From assembly GCF_011008905.1 (NCBI RefSeq), contig NZ_JAAIVI010000017.1, positions 434,001-498,000 on the forward strand: a stretch of 64,000 nt of DNA. The letters are read 5' to 3'. This document shows positions 2,594-16,783 of this stretch, one piece after another. Under the pieces are notes generated by a model that saw only the letters and a program-made list of their open reading frames with translations, ran no database searches and had not been told where the DNA came from. The stretch is from Wenzhouxiangella sp. XN201 (GTDB taxonomy: Bacteria > Pseudomonadota > Gammaproteobacteria > Xanthomonadales > Wenzhouxiangellaceae). Numbering within the stretch: the first letter of the stretch is position 1; the number at the start of each line of letters is the position of its first letter. Both the position numbers and the translations under genes were made by a program.

Positions 2594-3769
2594 ATGGCGC
2601 GAGCGCGCTCCGACAGCCTGGTGATTCACGCCTGCGGCCGTGACTGGCCGTGGCTGGCGCTGGATCGTTCCGGAGCCGTTGTCGACCGCGGCCAGGCCTC
2701 GAAGGATGCTCCGGGCTGGCCTGCCGACCGGCCGGCGCTGGTCCTCGTCGACGCGTCCCGGTGCCTCGGGCTGACGCTCGACCTGCCGCCGCTGCGTGGT
2801 CAGCGCCTGCGCCAGGCCCTGCGCTGGGCGGCCGAGGAACACCTCGCCGGCAGCGCCGAGGACGAACATGTCGTGCCCGGTCCACGTGACGCCGAAGGCC
2901 GGCTTTACTGCGTGAGCGTGGGCAACGCGACCATGGATGAAATCATGGCGCGCCTGGGCGATCTCGCGCCCGAGCGCCTGGTGCCGGATGCGCTGTGCCT
3001 GCCCTGGCAGCCCGGGCAGATCGGCCTGGCCGAGCATGAAGGCAGGATCCTGGTGCGCTGGGGCGAGTGGTCCTTCGCCGGCTTCGATCGCGAGTTGGCC
3101 GCCGACATGATCGCGTCGGTGGCGCAGCCTGAAGCCGAATGGATCTGGTACGGCGGTGACATGCCCGACTGGGTTGCCGATTCCGATCCGGCCGACGGCG
3201 CCGCCGGACGGCCCCTGCTGCAAGTCTTGGCCGAGCGCGCACGCAGCGTTCCGGTCAACCTGTTATCCGGTCCCTGGGCGCCGCGTTCGGCCGCCGCGGC
3301 GCATACCCGCTGGCGCTGGGTGGCGGTGCTGGCCGCTGTCCTGGTCGTCGGCAGCATCATGACCGCGGGCGTGGAGCGCTGGCAGCTGGCGGCCCGCGCC
3401 GATTCCCTCGAGACCGCCATCGAAGCGCAGTTCCGTGAGGCCTTTCCCGATGTTGGCCGCATCGTGCGACCGCAAGCCCAGGCCGAACGCGAGCTGGCAC
3501 GCTTGCGCTTCGGTCAGGCCGCCGGCCTGCTCGACCTGATGCATCGCGTCGCACCGGTGATCGATGGGCAGCCGGATCTGCTGGTTGATCGCATCGACTA
3601 TCGCAATGGCGTGCTCGAACTCGGATTGCGCGCTCCGGACGTCGCGGCGCTCGATGAGCTCGAACAACGACTCCGGGCTCTGCAACTTTCGGCCGAGGTG
3701 CAGTCGGCCAGTCTCGATGACGAAGGCGCCACCGGTCGCATCCGGGTGGCCGAGCGGGGTGGCGCATGA
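2594..3769 (+). CDS. gspL: Type II secretion inner-membrane protein GspL
   Basis: The 391-residue product has an N-terminal cytoplasmic actin-like region (residues about 1-230), a single transmembrane helix at about 240-260 (WVAVLAAVLVVGSIMTAGV) and a periplasmic ferredoxin-like domain. This is the GspL layout: the cytoplasmic half binds the GspE ATPase and the periplasmic half pairs with GspM. It begins two bases after the gspK stop and ends in an ATGA overlap with gspM. It resembles PilM plus PilN fused, and those proteins are encoded as separate genes later in the window. Confidence 0.93.
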   Translation: MARARSDSLVIHACGRDWPWLALDRSGAVVDRGQASKDAPGWPADRPALVLVDASRCLGLTLDLPPLRGQRLRQALRWAAEEHLAGSAEDEHVVPGPRDAEGRLYCVSVGNATMDEIMARLGDLAPERLVPDALCLPWQPGQIGLAEHEGRILVRWGEWSFAGFDRELAADMIASVAQPEAEWIWYGGDMPDWVADSDPADGAAGRPLLQVLAERARSVPVNLLSGPWAPRSAAAAHTRWRWVAVLAAVLVVGSIMTAGVERWQLAARADSLETAIEAQFREAFPDVGRIVRPQAQAERELARLRFGQAAGLLDLMHRVAPVIDGQPDLLVDRIDYRNGVLELGLRAPDVAALDELEQRLRALQLSAEVQSASLDDEGATGRIRVAERGGA

Positions 3770-11511: not shown

Positions 11512-13941
11512 TCAGTCGCCTCTCAGTTCCCGCGCGGGCGGCCGTCGGCCGATCCGCCAGGCCGGGTAGAGGCCGGCCAGCACTCCGCAGACGACGGCGA
11601 GTGGCAGCAAGGCCGCGGCCGGCAACAGCGGCCAGCTCAGCGGCAGGCTCCAGCCAAAGGCCCGGGGCTGGACGACCAGCGACAGGCCCAGGTGGATGGC
11701 CAGGGCGATCGGCACGGCCACCAGGGCGGCGGCCAGGGCCAGGCCGGCGGTCTGGGCGATGACCAGGGTGTAGAGTCGCGCCGGTGTGAGTCCGAGCGCC
11801 CGCAGGGTGGCATAGTCGCGCCGGCGTTCCAGTCCGAGCGCCAGCAAGGCGCTGACCAGGGCGATCACGGAAATGAGTCCGACCAGTGCCGCCAGGGCCC
11901 AGGAAATGCGGAAGGTCCGATCGAAGACCGCCAGGGTGGTGTCGCGGACTTGCTCGCGAGCGGTGAGCCGCAGTTCGTCCGAGATTGCGGCGAGTGCCTC
12001 CAGCAGCACTTGCCGGTCCGGCGGCGGATCGGCGTAGTACAGGCCAATGCTGTCGCGCAGCGGATCATCGAACACACGGCGATAGAGGGGGGCGTGAATC
12101 GCAATACTGCCCCGCTCGCTGGCGTAGTCACGGTAGATCGCCGCGATCGGTCGTTCAAGCGTTTCATTGGCTGCGTTGATCTCGACCGTGTCGCCAACCT
12201 GAAGGCCGCTGCGACGGGCCATCGGTTCGGAGATCACCACGGCCTGGCCTTGGCTGAATGCCGCCCAGGCCGCCTGTGAATCGCCGGCCAGCCATTCGAA
12301 GCCGCGCCAGGCTTGTTCGTGGAGATCGTAGGCGACGAGATCGCGGCCGTCCTCCAGCGGGATGCGGCGCGCGCTGGTGGTGGCGGCGATGTCCGGCAGA
12401 TCGCAAATGCGGGCCACCCGTTCCGGATCGAGCGCGCCGCGGCTGGCGGTGACGTAGCTGTCGGCCTGCAGCAGGCGGTCGATCCAGTCATCGACGGCGG
12501 CACGGAAACCCATCACCATCATGGCAATGCCCGCCGCCAGCGCCAGCGAAACACCCAGCGCGGCCAGGGGTGGGCCAATGCGCCGGCGCCCGGCCAGCAG
12601 CAGCGCCAGGGCGCGCGCGACCAGGCTGCGACCGGCGATGGACTTGAATATTCGCAATACGCGCAGCCCCGCCACTGGGGCCAGCAGTGCGCAGCCGGCC
12701 AGCCCGAGAAACAGCCCGGCGAAGGCCGCCGGCAGGCTGTCGGAAAAGCCGATGACGGCCAGCGCAAGCGCCAGCAGGCCCAGGGCCAGGATCAACGGAT
12801 GCCAGTCACGGTTCTGAGAGTCGCTGCGACGCAGCAACTGGCCGGGCGGAATGCCGCGGGCCTCGCGCAACAGCCCGGTCATCGAGATCAGCGCCATGCC
12901 GACGGCCAGGCCCCACAATGCCAGGTAGAGTCCGGTCGTGGGCATGACGCGGGCCGGTGGCAGCAGATCGTAGAGCGAGGCCACCGGGTCGCGGACCAGG
13001 CCAAGCAGTGCATCAGCCAGGACCGTGCCGAGCACCAGCCCGGCCAGGGCGCCGAGCCCCGCGATCACGGCCGTTTCGCTCAACAGCAGCAGCGCAATCC
13101 GGCCGTGGGTCACGCCCACGGCGCGCAGCATGGCCAGCGCCCGTCGACGCTGCACCAGCAGGAAGGACAGCACGCTGAAGATCACGAACAGGCCCACCGC
13201 CAGGCTGATCAGGCCCATGGCGCTTAAGTTGGCGCGCATGCCCTCGGTGAGGCGGGCGGCCGAACTGCGCCGGGCGTCGGCCGAGCGCAGCTCCAGGCCT
13301 TCGGGAAGGTTTTCGTTGAGCCAGTCGCGGGCTGTGGCCGGAGCGTCAATCCAGCTCAGTTCGCCCGAACGGTCGAGCCGGTCCTGGGCCGCGGCAATGT
13401 CCATGAGTAGGCGGTCGTCGAATCCACGGTGTTCGGGCAACAGTGCGGAGACGGTCAGCGTGATTTCGCGACGGCCGTGGCGAAGTGGCAGGGTGTCGCC
13501 GACTTCGAGATCGAGACGTTCGAGGGTCGAAGGGCTGACGGCAACGGCATCCGGCAAGGCCAGAAGTTCGGCCGGCAGCCCGGGCGGCAGCCGACCAGAG
13601 CGCGCACCGCCGCCGAACAGGTCGACACCGAGCAATTCGAGGTGCCGATCCCGGTGGCGAACGGTTTGTGCCAGTACCGGCAGCAGGGTGGGTGAGCCCG
13701 CTCGGGTGGCCAGCTCGGCATAAATCGCTTCGTCGAGGGGGCCGTCTGCCGCGCTGATTCGCAGGCTGTCCTCACCGGCCAGGGCGGTCGCGGCCCCGTC
13801 GAGCGAATCGACCAGGACATCGCGCATCAGGGCCACGCCGGTCATGACCGCCACGCCGGCGGCCATGCCGGCCAGGGCCAGCATCAACTGGCCGGGATGG
13901 CGCCGGAAGAATCGCCGCGAAGACTGCAGCAGCAGGCGCAT
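11512..13941 (-). CDS. FtsX-like ABC transporter permease (AttF/AttG fused type)
   Basis: I start this at the ATG sharing one base with the attE stop. The 809-residue product has an N-terminal transmembrane helix, two FtsX/MacB-type three-helix blocks (about 245-370 and 690-790), an extra membrane pair around 385-480, and two large extracytoplasmic domains. This is the LolC/E-like duplicated permease arrangement. With AttE (ATPase) and AttH it would form an AttEFGH-type system, which resembles lipoprotein- or envelope-acting ABC machines rather than small-molecule importers. The substrate is not known. Confidence 0.85.
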   Translation of the reverse strand: MRLLLQSSRRFFRRHPGQLMLALAGMAAGVAVMTGVALMRDVLVDSLDGAATALAGEDSLRISAADGPLDEAIYAELATRAGSPTLLPVLAQTVRHRDRHLELLGVDLFGGGARSGRLPPGLPAELLALPDAVAVSPSTLERLDLEVGDTLPLRHGRREITLTVSALLPEHRGFDDRLLMDIAAAQDRLDRSGELSWIDAPATARDWLNENLPEGLELRSADARRSSAARLTEGMRANLSAMGLISLAVGLFVIFSVLSFLLVQRRRALAMLRAVGVTHGRIALLLLSETAVIAGLGALAGLVLGTVLADALLGLVRDPVASLYDLLPPARVMPTTGLYLALWGLAVGMALISMTGLLREARGIPPGQLLRRSDSQNRDWHPLILALGLLALALAVIGFSDSLPAAFAGLFLGLAGCALLAPVAGLRVLRIFKSIAGRSLVARALALLLAGRRRIGPPLAALGVSLALAAGIAMMVMGFRAAVDDWIDRLLQADSYVTASRGALDPERVARICDLPDIAATTSARRIPLEDGRDLVAYDLHEQAWRGFEWLAGDSQAAWAAFSQGQAVVISEPMARRSGLQVGDTVEINAANETLERPIAAIYRDYASERGSIAIHAPLYRRVFDDPLRDSIGLYYADPPPDRQVLLEALAAISDELRLTAREQVRDTTLAVFDRTFRISWALAALVGLISVIALVSALLALGLERRRDYATLRALGLTPARLYTLVIAQTAGLALAAALVAVPIALAIHLGLSLVVQPRAFGWSLPLSWPLLPAAALLPLAVVCGVLAGLYPAWRIGRRPPARELRGD

Positions 13942-14645
13942 CAAATCTCCTGCAAGCGTCCGCCGCGCAGCTCGAGGCGTCGGTCACAGATGGCCGCTGC
14001 CGCCGGGTTGTGCGTCACCAGCACCAGGGCACAGCCGCGTTGTGCAGTGATCTGCTCGAACAGCGAGAGCACATCTGCAGCCGTGCTTTCGTCGAGACTG
14101 CCGGTGGGCTCGTCGGCCAGCATCAGGCCGGGTTCATGGACCAGCGCACGCGCGATGGCCACGCGCTGTTTCTCGCCGCCTGATAGCTGTTCGGGCAAGC
14201 GGTCGAGCAGCTCATCGATGCCCAGTGCCGCGGTCAGTTCGTCGAGGGCTTCGTTTTTCCGGGGCCGCCCGTTCAGCCACAGGGGCAGGTCGATGTTCTC
14301 ACCCGCGCTGAGCGAGTCGATCAGGTTGAAATCCTGGAATACCAGGCCTACCGTGCGGGCGCGGAACCGTGTCATTTGGGGTTCGGCCAGGGTACCGAGA
14401 TCGCGGCCCAGCAGTTCGACCTGCCCGGCATCGGGCCGGTCCATTCCGGCGGCGAGGTGGAGCAGGGTGGACTTGCCTGAGCCGGAGGCGCCCATGACGG
14501 CCACGCGTTCGCCGCTTCCGATCTTGAGGTCGAGTCCGCGTAGAACCGGGACCAATCGCTTGCCCGAGCGAAACGTGCGATCGATGCCGTGCATCGAAAG
14601 CGCCGGCGCCGTTTCCGCCGGCATGGCAGGGGTCGGAGCGCTCAT
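13941..14645 (-). CDS. attE: ABC transporter ATP-binding protein (AttE-like)
   Basis: The 234-residue ATPase shows Walker A G-A-S-G-S-G-K-S-T (about residues 54-62), a Q-loop (V-F-Q-D-F-N), the signature L-S-G-G-E-K-Q-R (about 158-165), Walker B L-M-L-A-D-E-P-T-G-S-L-D and a switch His (L-V-T-H-N). It belongs to the MacB/LolD-type subfamily that pairs with FtsX-like permeases, which agrees with the overlapping downstream permease gene. It is the first gene of the attE-permease-attH operon. Confidence 0.93.
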   Translation of the reverse strand: MSAPTPAMPAETAPALSMHGIDRTFRSGKRLVPVLRGLDLKIGSGERVAVMGASGSGKSTLLHLAAGMDRPDAGQVELLGRDLGTLAEPQMTRFRARTVGLVFQDFNLIDSLSAGENIDLPLWLNGRPRKNEALDELTAALGIDELLDRLPEQLSGGEKQRVAIARALVHEPGLMLADEPTGSLDESTAADVLSLFEQITAQRGCALVLVTHNPAAAAICDRRLELRGGRLQEI

Positions 14646-14770: not shown

Positions 14771-14799
14771 TTGGCAATCTGTAATTGCTGTGGTAGACT
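14771..14799 (+). promoter_or_regulatory. Sigma70-type promoter of the panD leader
   Basis: TTGGCA (14771-14776), a 17-base spacer and TAGACT (14794-14799) preceded by TGG, giving an extended -10. Expected transcription start about 14806. No other good promoter is visible between here and panD. Confidence 0.6.
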
Positions 14800-14805
14800 T
14801 ACCAC

Positions 14806-14912
14806 CAACCTTGGTAAAACCGCAACGGTTGAGCAAGGTCGCAGGGCGCGAAGCGAGGTACATCACTCCGACATCCGTTGCCCCTCCCTCGACCAGGGGA
14901 GGGGTTTTTTTT
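14806..14912 (+). ncRNA. Candidate structured leader RNA or small RNA upstream of panD
   Basis: The 314-base gap between attE and panD holds a promoter, about 75 bases with pairing potential and a strong terminator. Visible pairings are CCTTG (about 14809-14813) with CAAGG (about 14835-14839), enclosing the hairpin AACCG-CAA-CGGTT (about 14818-14830), and a small CGC-GAA-GCG loop further on. The unit ends 46 bases before the panD start codon. It may be a cis-acting attenuator or riboswitch controlling panD, or an independent small RNA. I do not recognise it as a known family; a pan-motif RNA is a possibility I could not test. Confidence 0.4.
14881..14912 (+). terminator. Strong rho-independent terminator ahead of panD
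   Basis: CCCCTCCC (14881-14888) pairs perfectly with GGGAGGGG (14897-14904) across an 8-base loop, followed by eight T (14905-14912). Confidence 0.9.
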
Positions 14913-14958
14913 GGGTGACGCATTATCACCAAACCCTTGTTGACAGAGGTTCGGCAAC

Positions 14959-15339
14959 ATGCAATTGACGATGTTGAAGGGCAAGATTCATCGCGCGACC
15001 GTCACGCGCGTCGAACGTGACTACGAGGGGTCCTGTGCGATCGACAGGAACCTGCTCGAGGCGGCCGGAATTCTCGAGCACGAACAAGTACATATCTACA
15101 ATATTACGAGCGGCGAACGGTTCGTGACATACGCTATCCGGGCCGAGCGCGACTGCGGCATCATCTCGGTCAATGGCGCTGCGGCGCACTGCGCCAGCCC
15201 GGGCGATCTGGTCATTATTGCCGCCTATGCGCGCATGAGCGAAACCGAGGCCGAGCTGCACCGGCCGCGCCTGGTCTATCCCGACACCGAGAACCGCATC
15301 GCGCGCACGGCCGAGGGCGTGCCGGCCCAGGCTGCCTGA
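14959..15339 (+). CDS. panD: Aspartate 1-decarboxylase proenzyme PanD
   Basis: The start at ATG 14959 follows AGAGG (14945-14949). The 126-residue product is a pyruvoyl enzyme that self-cleaves at Gly-Ser within Y-E-G-S-C-A-I-D (about residues 22-29), and carries the catalytic-loop text [12 protein letters not shown] and N-G-A-A-A-H. It makes beta-alanine for pantothenate and coenzyme A. panB and panC are not in the window upstream. The short distance to the upstream terminator suggests leader-based regulation. pgi follows 13 bases downstream. Confidence 0.95.
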
Positions 15340-15352
15340 AACCGGTTCCGGG

Positions 15353-16783
15353 ATGTTGCAAAAAAACAACATTCCGCCCGTATCCGAACTCTTGGCGGAA
15401 GATCCGAACCGGGCGCGCGACTTCGTCTGCCGCGGCGGCGGCTGGACCCTTGATTTCTCCCATATCCCCCTGACCCGCGAAGGGCTCTCGTCCCTGCAGC
15501 GCCTTCCGGCTGCGTGCGGCCTGGATGGGGCCGTGGAGCGCCTTTTTTCCGGGGCAATCGTCAATCCCAGCGAGGGTCAGCCGGCGCTGCACATGGCCCT
15601 GAGAGCCAACGATCCGTTCCAGGGCCTGTCGCCGGAAGCGGGAGCGGATTTGATCGCCGGGCGCAATCGCTTCCTGGCCGTTGCGGATCGGCTGCACGCC
15701 GGTGAGACGGGCCTGACCGACCTGTTGCATGTCGGCATCGGCGGCTCGGACCTGGGGCCGAGGCTGGTGGCCGATGCGCTGGATGAAGATGACAGTGCCG
15801 TGCGCGTCCACTGGCTGTCGACGCTCGACGGTCGGCGATTCGAGCGCTTGTGCCGCCAGCTGGATCCGGCCACCACCGGCCTGGTAATCGCCTCGAAATC
15901 CTTTTCCACGGAGGAAACCCTGGAGCAGGCGCGTGCGGCGCGCGACTGGCTGGGGGCCGACTGGACCCGGCGAAGCTGGGCGGCGACCGCCAACGTCGAT
16001 CGTGCCCGGGAATTCGGACTCGACGATGACCACATTCTGGCTTTTCCTGCCTGGACCGGCGGCCGTTTTTCACTGTGGTCCTCGGTGGGCGTAAGCGCCG
16101 CGGCCGTTGTCGGTTCCCAACGCTTCCGGGCCTTGCTGGCCGGTGCCGAAGCAGCGGATCTCGACTTTCACGGGCAACCCGATGCGAACGGACTGGCCGT
16201 TCTTATCGGCCTGTTGGTTCACTACCTGCGTCGTGAACTCGACTGCAGCACGCTGGGTATCGTCAGCTACGAGCCACGCCTGGCCCTGCTGGCCGACTAC
16301 CTGCAACAGTTGTTCATGGAAAGCCTTGGCAAGGGTGTCGACCTCGACGGCAAGCCGGTCGACGGTCCAACCGTGCCGCTGATCTTTGGCGGGCTGGGAA
16401 CCGACCTGCAGCACTCGATTTTCCAGGCCCTGCATCAGGGGCCGGACACGCACCCACTGATTCTGGTTGGCGCGCGCGAGGCTGACCACGAGCACCCGGA
16501 CTGGCAGCGTCGCCAGCTTGCCCATCTGTATGCCCAGGCCAGCGCATTTGCCAACGGTCGCAGCGACGGCGAACCGCACCAGAAGCTGCCCGGTAGCCGG
16601 CCGGTCGCAACCTTGCTGGTCGATCGACTCGATGCCGGCAGGCTAGGCTGGTTACTGGCCACCCTGGAAGCTGCCGTCTACGCCCTGTCGGTGGTCTGGC
16701 ACATCAATGCCTTTGATCAATGGGGCGTAGAAGAAGGCAAACGCCTGGCGCGCGATTTTCGCAATCGCCTCAAGGACGGCTAG
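15353..16783 (+). CDS. pgi: Glucose-6-phosphate isomerase
   Basis: The 476-residue product interconverts glucose 6-phosphate and fructose 6-phosphate. It is shorter than E. coli Pgi (about 549). Family motifs present are V-G-I-G-G-S-D-L-G-P-R (about residues 126-136), A-S-K-S-F-S-T-E-E-T (about 182-191), F-G-G-L-G-T-D-L-Q-H-S with H-Q-G shortly after, and N-A-F-D-Q-W-G-V-E-E-G-K near the C-terminus, which retains the active-site Lys. The GGLGT version replaces the usual GEPGT. It lies 13 bases after panD and is probably co-transcribed with it; the downstream lipoprotein gene converges on it. Confidence 0.93.
   Translation: MLQKNNIPPVSELLAEDPNRARDFVCRGGGWTLDFSHIPLTREGLSSLQRLPAACGLDGAVERLFSGAIVNPSEGQPALHMALRANDPFQGLSPEAGADLIAGRNRFLAVADRLHAGETGLTDLLHVGIGGSDLGPRLVADALDEDDSAVRVHWLSTLDGRRFERLCRQLDPATTGLVIASKSFSTEETLEQARAARDWLGADWTRRSWAATANVDRAREFGLDDDHILAFPAWTGGRFSLWSSVGVSAAAVVGSQRFRALLAGAEAADLDFHGQPDANGLAVLIGLLVHYLRRELDCSTLGIVSYEPRLALLADYLQQLFMESLGKGVDLDGKPVDGPTVPLIFGGLGTDLQHSIFQALHQGPDTHPLILVGAREADHEHPDWQRRQLAHLYAQASAFANGRSDGEPHQKLPGSRPVATLLVDRLDAGRLGWLLATLEAAVYALSVVWHINAFDQWGVEEGKRLARDFRNRLKDG

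Follow-up and report, generated by a model that had tools for sequence, protein, structure and literature searches.

Does the short transcription unit directly in front of panD in Wenzhouxiangella sp. XN201 serve panD, or is it a gene in its own right? A preliminary description of the window (the whole stretch of 64,000 nucleotides analyzed here) had pointed out a promoter, a structured RNA, and a terminator at this place, and had read them as a transcription-attenuating leader or riboswitch of panD or, equally, as an independent small RNA. Comparison with related genomes favors the second reading. The stretch before panD is unlikely to work as a panD switch; the unit is probably a gene of its own, with a small RNA product about 107 nucleotides long that would act in trans.

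Anatomy and conservation of the unit

The promoter (14771–14799, forward strand) was located by a consensus scan and consists of TTGGCA, a gap of 17 bases, and TAGACT with the extended −10 letters TGG; it is of the extended −10 type described earlier, with TG before the −10. The small RNA would occupy 14806–14912 on the same strand (about 107 transcribed bases), its 5′ start being deduced from the −10. It is built from a variable 5′ hairpin, a near-invariant core that is predicted to be mostly unpaired, and a terminator that usually carries seven to nine U. The hairpin is closed by the outer pairing ACCTTG/CAAGGT (14808–14839), which is indicated by covariation and per-sequence folds. The core (CAGGGCGC...GGTACATCACTCC, 14842–14869) is unpaired in the centroid fold and partly paired in the minimum-energy fold. 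The intrinsic terminator (14880–14912) is likewise indicated by covariation and comprises a stem at 14880–14905 followed by T up to 14912. Read directly, its strict stem is the perfect 8-bp helix first reported (CCCCTCCC/GGGAGGGG) with eight T. A spacer of 46 bases (14913–14958) leads to the ATG of panD at 14959, a distance that had been given correctly, and neither the consensus scan nor our own reading of the letters found a second clear promoter in these 46 bases, in agreement with the earlier view. A 5-bp inverted repeat, GGTGA/TCACC, lies within the spacer at 14914–14930.

Motif scans of a 3-kb region returned two promoter-like sites (0.4 expected from shuffles) and seven terminator-like sites (2.2 in shuffles), among which the terminator of the RNA has the most pairs (10). 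The promoter-RNA-terminator unit is real and exceeds chance.

Mean identity to the window rises from 0.43 upstream to 0.88 at the −10, 0.81 in the 5′ hairpin, and 0.96 in the core, is 0.79 in the terminator and 0.97 in the T-run, and falls to 0.28 in the spacer to panD. These values come from 30 aligned rows, that is, 33 sequences less three that are cut at contig ends (L017, L019, and L065, the last also being left out of alignment A1). Since the RNA is conserved from the −10 to the T-run and the spacer is not, selection acts on the RNA, and none is shown by the spacer. Of 102 distinct relatives, 87 have TGGTANNNT no more than 100 bases before the core, and in 100 the T-run reaches at least seven (seven to nine in 98). 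A DNA search of 61 genomes with E below 1e-8 recovered 31 of the 37 members of the window's family and two of the 24 others, both from family f8. With a covariance model, 41 of 43 genomes of the window's family match at E ≤ 0.01, the weakest being marginal. In the window's own genome, the only strong match is the RNA itself, and the other matches listed are short and weak. In one draft genome (G009), two contigs (C164 and C249) both end in the RNA, probably representing one place split by the assembly. In g4 and g5, two genera of the window's family, the core has eroded or disappeared (L161, L165, L166, and L170) while the terminator remains before pgi or panD; in g4, promoter-like letters are also retained in place.

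The fold of 14806–14912 has an energy of −40.6 kcal/mol (z −2.26), which was equaled by 6 of 200 shuffles. In an alignment of 33 sequences, 99.0% of the cells of the outer 5′ pairing are paired and both sides have changed in three of six pairs; in the terminator, both sides have changed in four of ten pairs. Taken together, the two helices are paired in 99.2% of cells, with both-side changes in 7 of 16 pairs. None of 500 shuffles, which ignore the relatedness among the 33 sequences, was as high on any measure, and slid controls gave one to three such pairs. The preliminary description had listed two nested pairings and a small hairpin with a GAA loop, all of which are present in the window. 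Across the 33 sequences, covariation backs the outer pairing, whereas the CGC/GCG stem of the GAA-loop hairpin (complete in 28) never varies in its letters and the inner pairing AACCG/CGGTT is complete in only five (at least four of its five pairs in 17). The cores of other families do not form the GAA-loop hairpin. Judged from these sequences, neither the GAA-loop hairpin nor the inner pairing is a general feature.

Across the order, the 5′ hairpin varies greatly in sequence and length, and its 3′ end stays close to the core. A GCAACG element recurs in the hairpin of several families although the surrounding helix changes. Per-sequence folds of 102 rows gave a mean z of −2.4 against single-base shuffles, in a survey in which the start is misplaced in a few rows (L218, L169, and L279) and from which L167 was left out. 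At least four outer pairs form in 99 of the 102 rows, yet single-base shuffles average 4.3, and the fold energy is a better measure than this weak count.

Forms of the core and their spread in Lysobacterales

Across many families of Lysobacterales, the core follows the pattern CAGGGCGC-N-GGTA(CA/ATCG)TCACTCC and takes two forms, which are distinguished by TACATCACTCC versus TAATCGTCACTCC. The form CAGGGCGC-N-G(G/A)TACATCACTCC is found in families f1 and f8. The form CAGGGCGC-N-GTAATCGTCACTCC, with small changes, is found in f4, f5, f6, f7, f10, and f11, in two genomes of f2, and in part of f12. Of the twelve families of the order that were sampled, ten have the core; among 398 genomes of the order, the pattern was not seen in f3 and f9, in most of f2, or in much of f12. 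It matches 98 of the 398 genomes (reversed control, four genomes), a count that includes seven judged by our own reading to be chance only and misses true members such as G024, G043, and G053. The covariance model passes E 0.01 in 161 of the 398 genomes of the order and in 50 of 369 genomes of the class, the best match outside the order scoring 32.9 bits; matches of 20–33 bits in class and order are taken as chance unless the core is present.

A scan of a genome collection with the core pattern yielded 99 stretches, of which four are chance (L234, L259, L284, and L285) and one carries the label of an odd phylum (L231). Among the 80 that were listed with titles, most are labeled Wenzhouxiangella, Lysobacterales, or a wider enclosing group, and the named matches include Wenzhouxiangella, Dokdonella, Tahibacter, Rudaea, Pseudomarimonas, and Lysobacter sp. 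CAU 1642. The order-wide core alignment left out these five stretches, L176, L190, and duplicates. One metagenome-assembled genome labeled Alphaproteobacteria (L227) has a CAGGGCG repeat in its core; it is probably mislabeled, because it carries the RNA and a panD that is 84% identical to that of the window. Neither phage records, searched with the window's stretch, nor plasmid records, searched with a relative's RNA (L216), gave a match. Viral contigs returned four stretches and one stretch for two patterns, all of which were dismissed as chance on our own reading of the letters.

The stretch from the odd phylum, L231, is labeled Candidatus Paceibacterota, a group of ultra-small, often host-bound bacteria. 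Its core lies at 3286–3315 on the reverse strand, and 35 bases are identical to the core of two Lysobacterales loci of the f11 type (L204 and L216). The core sits between a 252-aa frame and a 376-aa frame resembling a membrane protein; further out, by our own reading, are frames like glycyl- and methionyl-tRNA synthetase. The G+C content is even (0.41–0.48), and the 5′ part, the flanks, and the terminator hairpin are unlike those of Lysobacterales. The folded stretch has a z of −3.6 and, unlike in the window, the core is largely paired. Mis-assembly confined to 35 bases within unrelated flanks seems unlikely. That the core is used between organisms, with an epibiont making a mimic of its host's small RNA, is a reading that we consider very unlikely.

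Neighboring genes and the leader question

In the window, the RNA gene is followed on the same strand by panD (aspartate decarboxylase, 14959–15339; PF02261, E 1.5e-46), which lies outside it, and by pgi (glucose-6-phosphate isomerase, 15353–16783; PF00342, E 1.8e-99), a neighbor in many relatives with or without panD. The divergent upstream neighbor found in Wenzhouxiangella is an ABC transporter ATPase gene (13941–14645, reverse strand; PF00005, E 1.2e-33). For all 99 stretches, the surroundings were searched with a set of query proteins, so that "nearest" means nearest among the queries and an unrecognized gene may intervene; names were assigned by Pfam on one example of each kind, except leuS, which was named by our own reading. 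Upstream, panC lies on the same strand in 61 stretches, the ABC ATPase on the other strand in 18, and another gene or none in 20. In five loci (L192, L202, L218, L230, and L247), the core starts as little as 53–65 bases behind the panC match, and the promoter of the RNA must then sit at the end of panC. The ancestral order was probably panB-panC-RNA-panD-pgi, and the place of the RNA between panC and panD or pgi looks inherited rather than functional.

The idea of a cis-acting attenuator or riboswitch leader that answers to a metabolite and controls panD (or panD-pgi) draws on several of these observations. Downstream, 89 loci are informative (the 99 stretches less the four chance ones, L231, and five that end within 200 bases), and panD is the nearest recognized gene in 46 of them and pgi in 27, an opposite-strand gene takes that place in 13, and three have none; a same-strand panD or pgi is therefore nearest in 73. 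In the window's family, panD, where it follows, begins 21–79 bases after the RNA, which leaves little room for another promoter, and the highly conserved core resembles an aptamer. The same survey, however, speaks against a leader, for which a same-strand gene would be required behind every member. Eleven of the 89 loci have a full-length opposite-strand gene next (queG in six, a HerA-like helicase in four, and SEC-C in one), and two more have a HerA remnant. In Wenzhouxiangella genomes such as G007, G021, and G024, the RNA is kept before pgi and no panD match occurs in the genome. The preliminary description had held that a lack of conserved structure upstream of panD would count against a leader. 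The structure is conserved there, but it is conserved without panD too. The one antiterminator-like candidate that was tested (GCAACGG/CCGTTGC, 7 bp) is complete in 3 of the 33 sequences and has six or seven pairs in 11. The proposed search for a pan motif gave no support for a leader. None of the 4227 families of Rfam release 15, riboswitch and leader families included, matches the window at the curated cut-off, and of six matches at the cut-off in ten divergent loci, all are tRNAs and none lies at the RNA. At E up to 10, six weak matches appear in the window, with no pan family among them; the best is PyrR (RF00515), whose 23.9 bits fall short of its gathering score of 54. Both PyrR and the pan motif are leader RNAs of biosynthetic genes. 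We consider a leader of this kind very improbable. Retention of the RNA without panD, or with an opposite-strand gene next to it, makes it independent of any downstream gene and thus points to an independent RNA gene, the other reading that had been offered at the outset.

A leader peptide was also considered and rejected: a TTG-started frame is not kept, as the spacing between the first TTG and the core, taken modulo 3, is 0 in 17 of 33 rows, 1 in 14, and 2 in two, and an ATG occurs in 5 of 33. In L218 and L230, leuS follows on the strand of the RNA, 561 and 472 bases after the core, and 34–41 residues of the HerA-like gene are left in between, apparently decaying in place.

A milder form of the same idea combines both roles. 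In Wenzhouxiangella and its relatives, a trans-acting small RNA could end in a leaky terminator that supplies the panD or panD-pgi transcript. Where panD lies 21–79 bases behind the RNA, and with no clear promoter in the window's spacer, leaky read-through may express panD. The divergent ATPase gene, which replaces panC upstream in the 18 Wenzhouxiangella-type stretches, means that no panBC transcript can run in. Conversely, the unconserved spacer could hide a weak promoter unlike the consensus scanned, and the terminator looks strong. This dual role is possible, though less likely than not; being compatible with the independent small RNA, it shares part of the likelihood given to that reading. 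Read-through into panD would be a consequence of position and not the reason that the RNA is kept.

Proposed action as a trans-acting small RNA

The independent small RNA is supported by the conserved extended −10 motif, the covarying 5′ hairpin, the near-invariant core, and the terminator. By analogy, it would be of an ordinary kind, laid out like the base-pairing small RNAs of the Hfq type. It appears to have its own promoter and an intrinsic terminator with at least seven U, and the core, with its identity of 0.96 and its predicted single-stranded state in the centroid fold, could provide the conserved unpaired contact sequence. The RNA would be transcribed as a discrete molecule, its U-tail and terminator would bind Hfq, and the core would pair with mRNAs in trans. 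Contact would most likely be made by UCACUCC, a sequence similar to the anti-Shine-Dalgarno end of 16S rRNA (AUCACCUCC). This closeness suggests pairing with ribosome-binding sites; UCACUCC would cover those of the GGAG type and block translation. Leaky read-through may nevertheless contribute to panD expression where that gene starts a few tens of bases behind the RNA. A core so constant implies that the targets should be old and general.

Xanthomonas, the host of the small RNA sX13, presumably belongs to the same order as the window's genome, judging by its name. sX13 is described as having three stem-loops with C-rich loops and acting without Hfq, and its C-rich contact sequences are reported to act on G-rich motifs near translation starts (PMC3771888). 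Set against this description, the RNA at panD differs: it has a single 5′ hairpin and a long U-tail, and CCCC does not occur in its core; its centroid fold consists of the 5′ hairpin and the terminator instead of three stem-loops. Hfq-dependent enterobacterial small RNAs are characterized by a single-stranded targeting part and a Rho-independent terminator (PMC3771888), features that the RNA appears to share, its own terminator having a long U-tail. In the RNA at panD, the segment that would do the targeting is flanked by a hairpin on either side instead of forming the 5′ end. Of the 61 genomes examined, 59 encode Hfq, the window's own among them; as sX13 works without Hfq, its presence in a genome proves little.

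Targets were sought in 43 genomes with a single 11-mer complementary to the core (CGGAGTGATGT). It occurs in 72 places, of which 36 are the RNA itself and 36 are other sites, distributed over 25 of the 43 genomes; the reversed control gave five. For this one 11-mer in the 43 genomes, no gene on the sense strand is common to genomes among the 36 sites. Three sites are common to genome pairs (L332/L334, L329/L337, and L335/L341), and each lies on the strand opposite to the long frame, which means that the letters needed for pairing would be absent from the message. The excess over the reversed control is taken as due to composition and codon use.

This missing shared sense-strand target would suit a core that binds a protein or a small molecule instead of mRNAs, as in a titrating or sensing RNA, and so would its two conserved boxes with a variable loop between them. 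CsrA sponges carry repeated GGA motifs, which our own reading did not find in the core, and the unpaired UCACUCC fits pairing. We regard a protein- or ligand-binding core as unlikely, and pairing with mRNAs remains the preferred reading.

In the literature surveyed (titles and abstract openings, with subscription papers mostly outside its scope), no RNA between panC and panD or before pgi is described in Lysobacterales. The locus in front of panD represents an RNA family that matches no entry of Rfam release 15 and extends over ten of the Lysobacterales families sampled. It also holds a caution for the reading of similar loci: a promoter, a hairpin, and a terminator before a gene need not form a leader, and here it was only the comparison of neighbors that separated the two.
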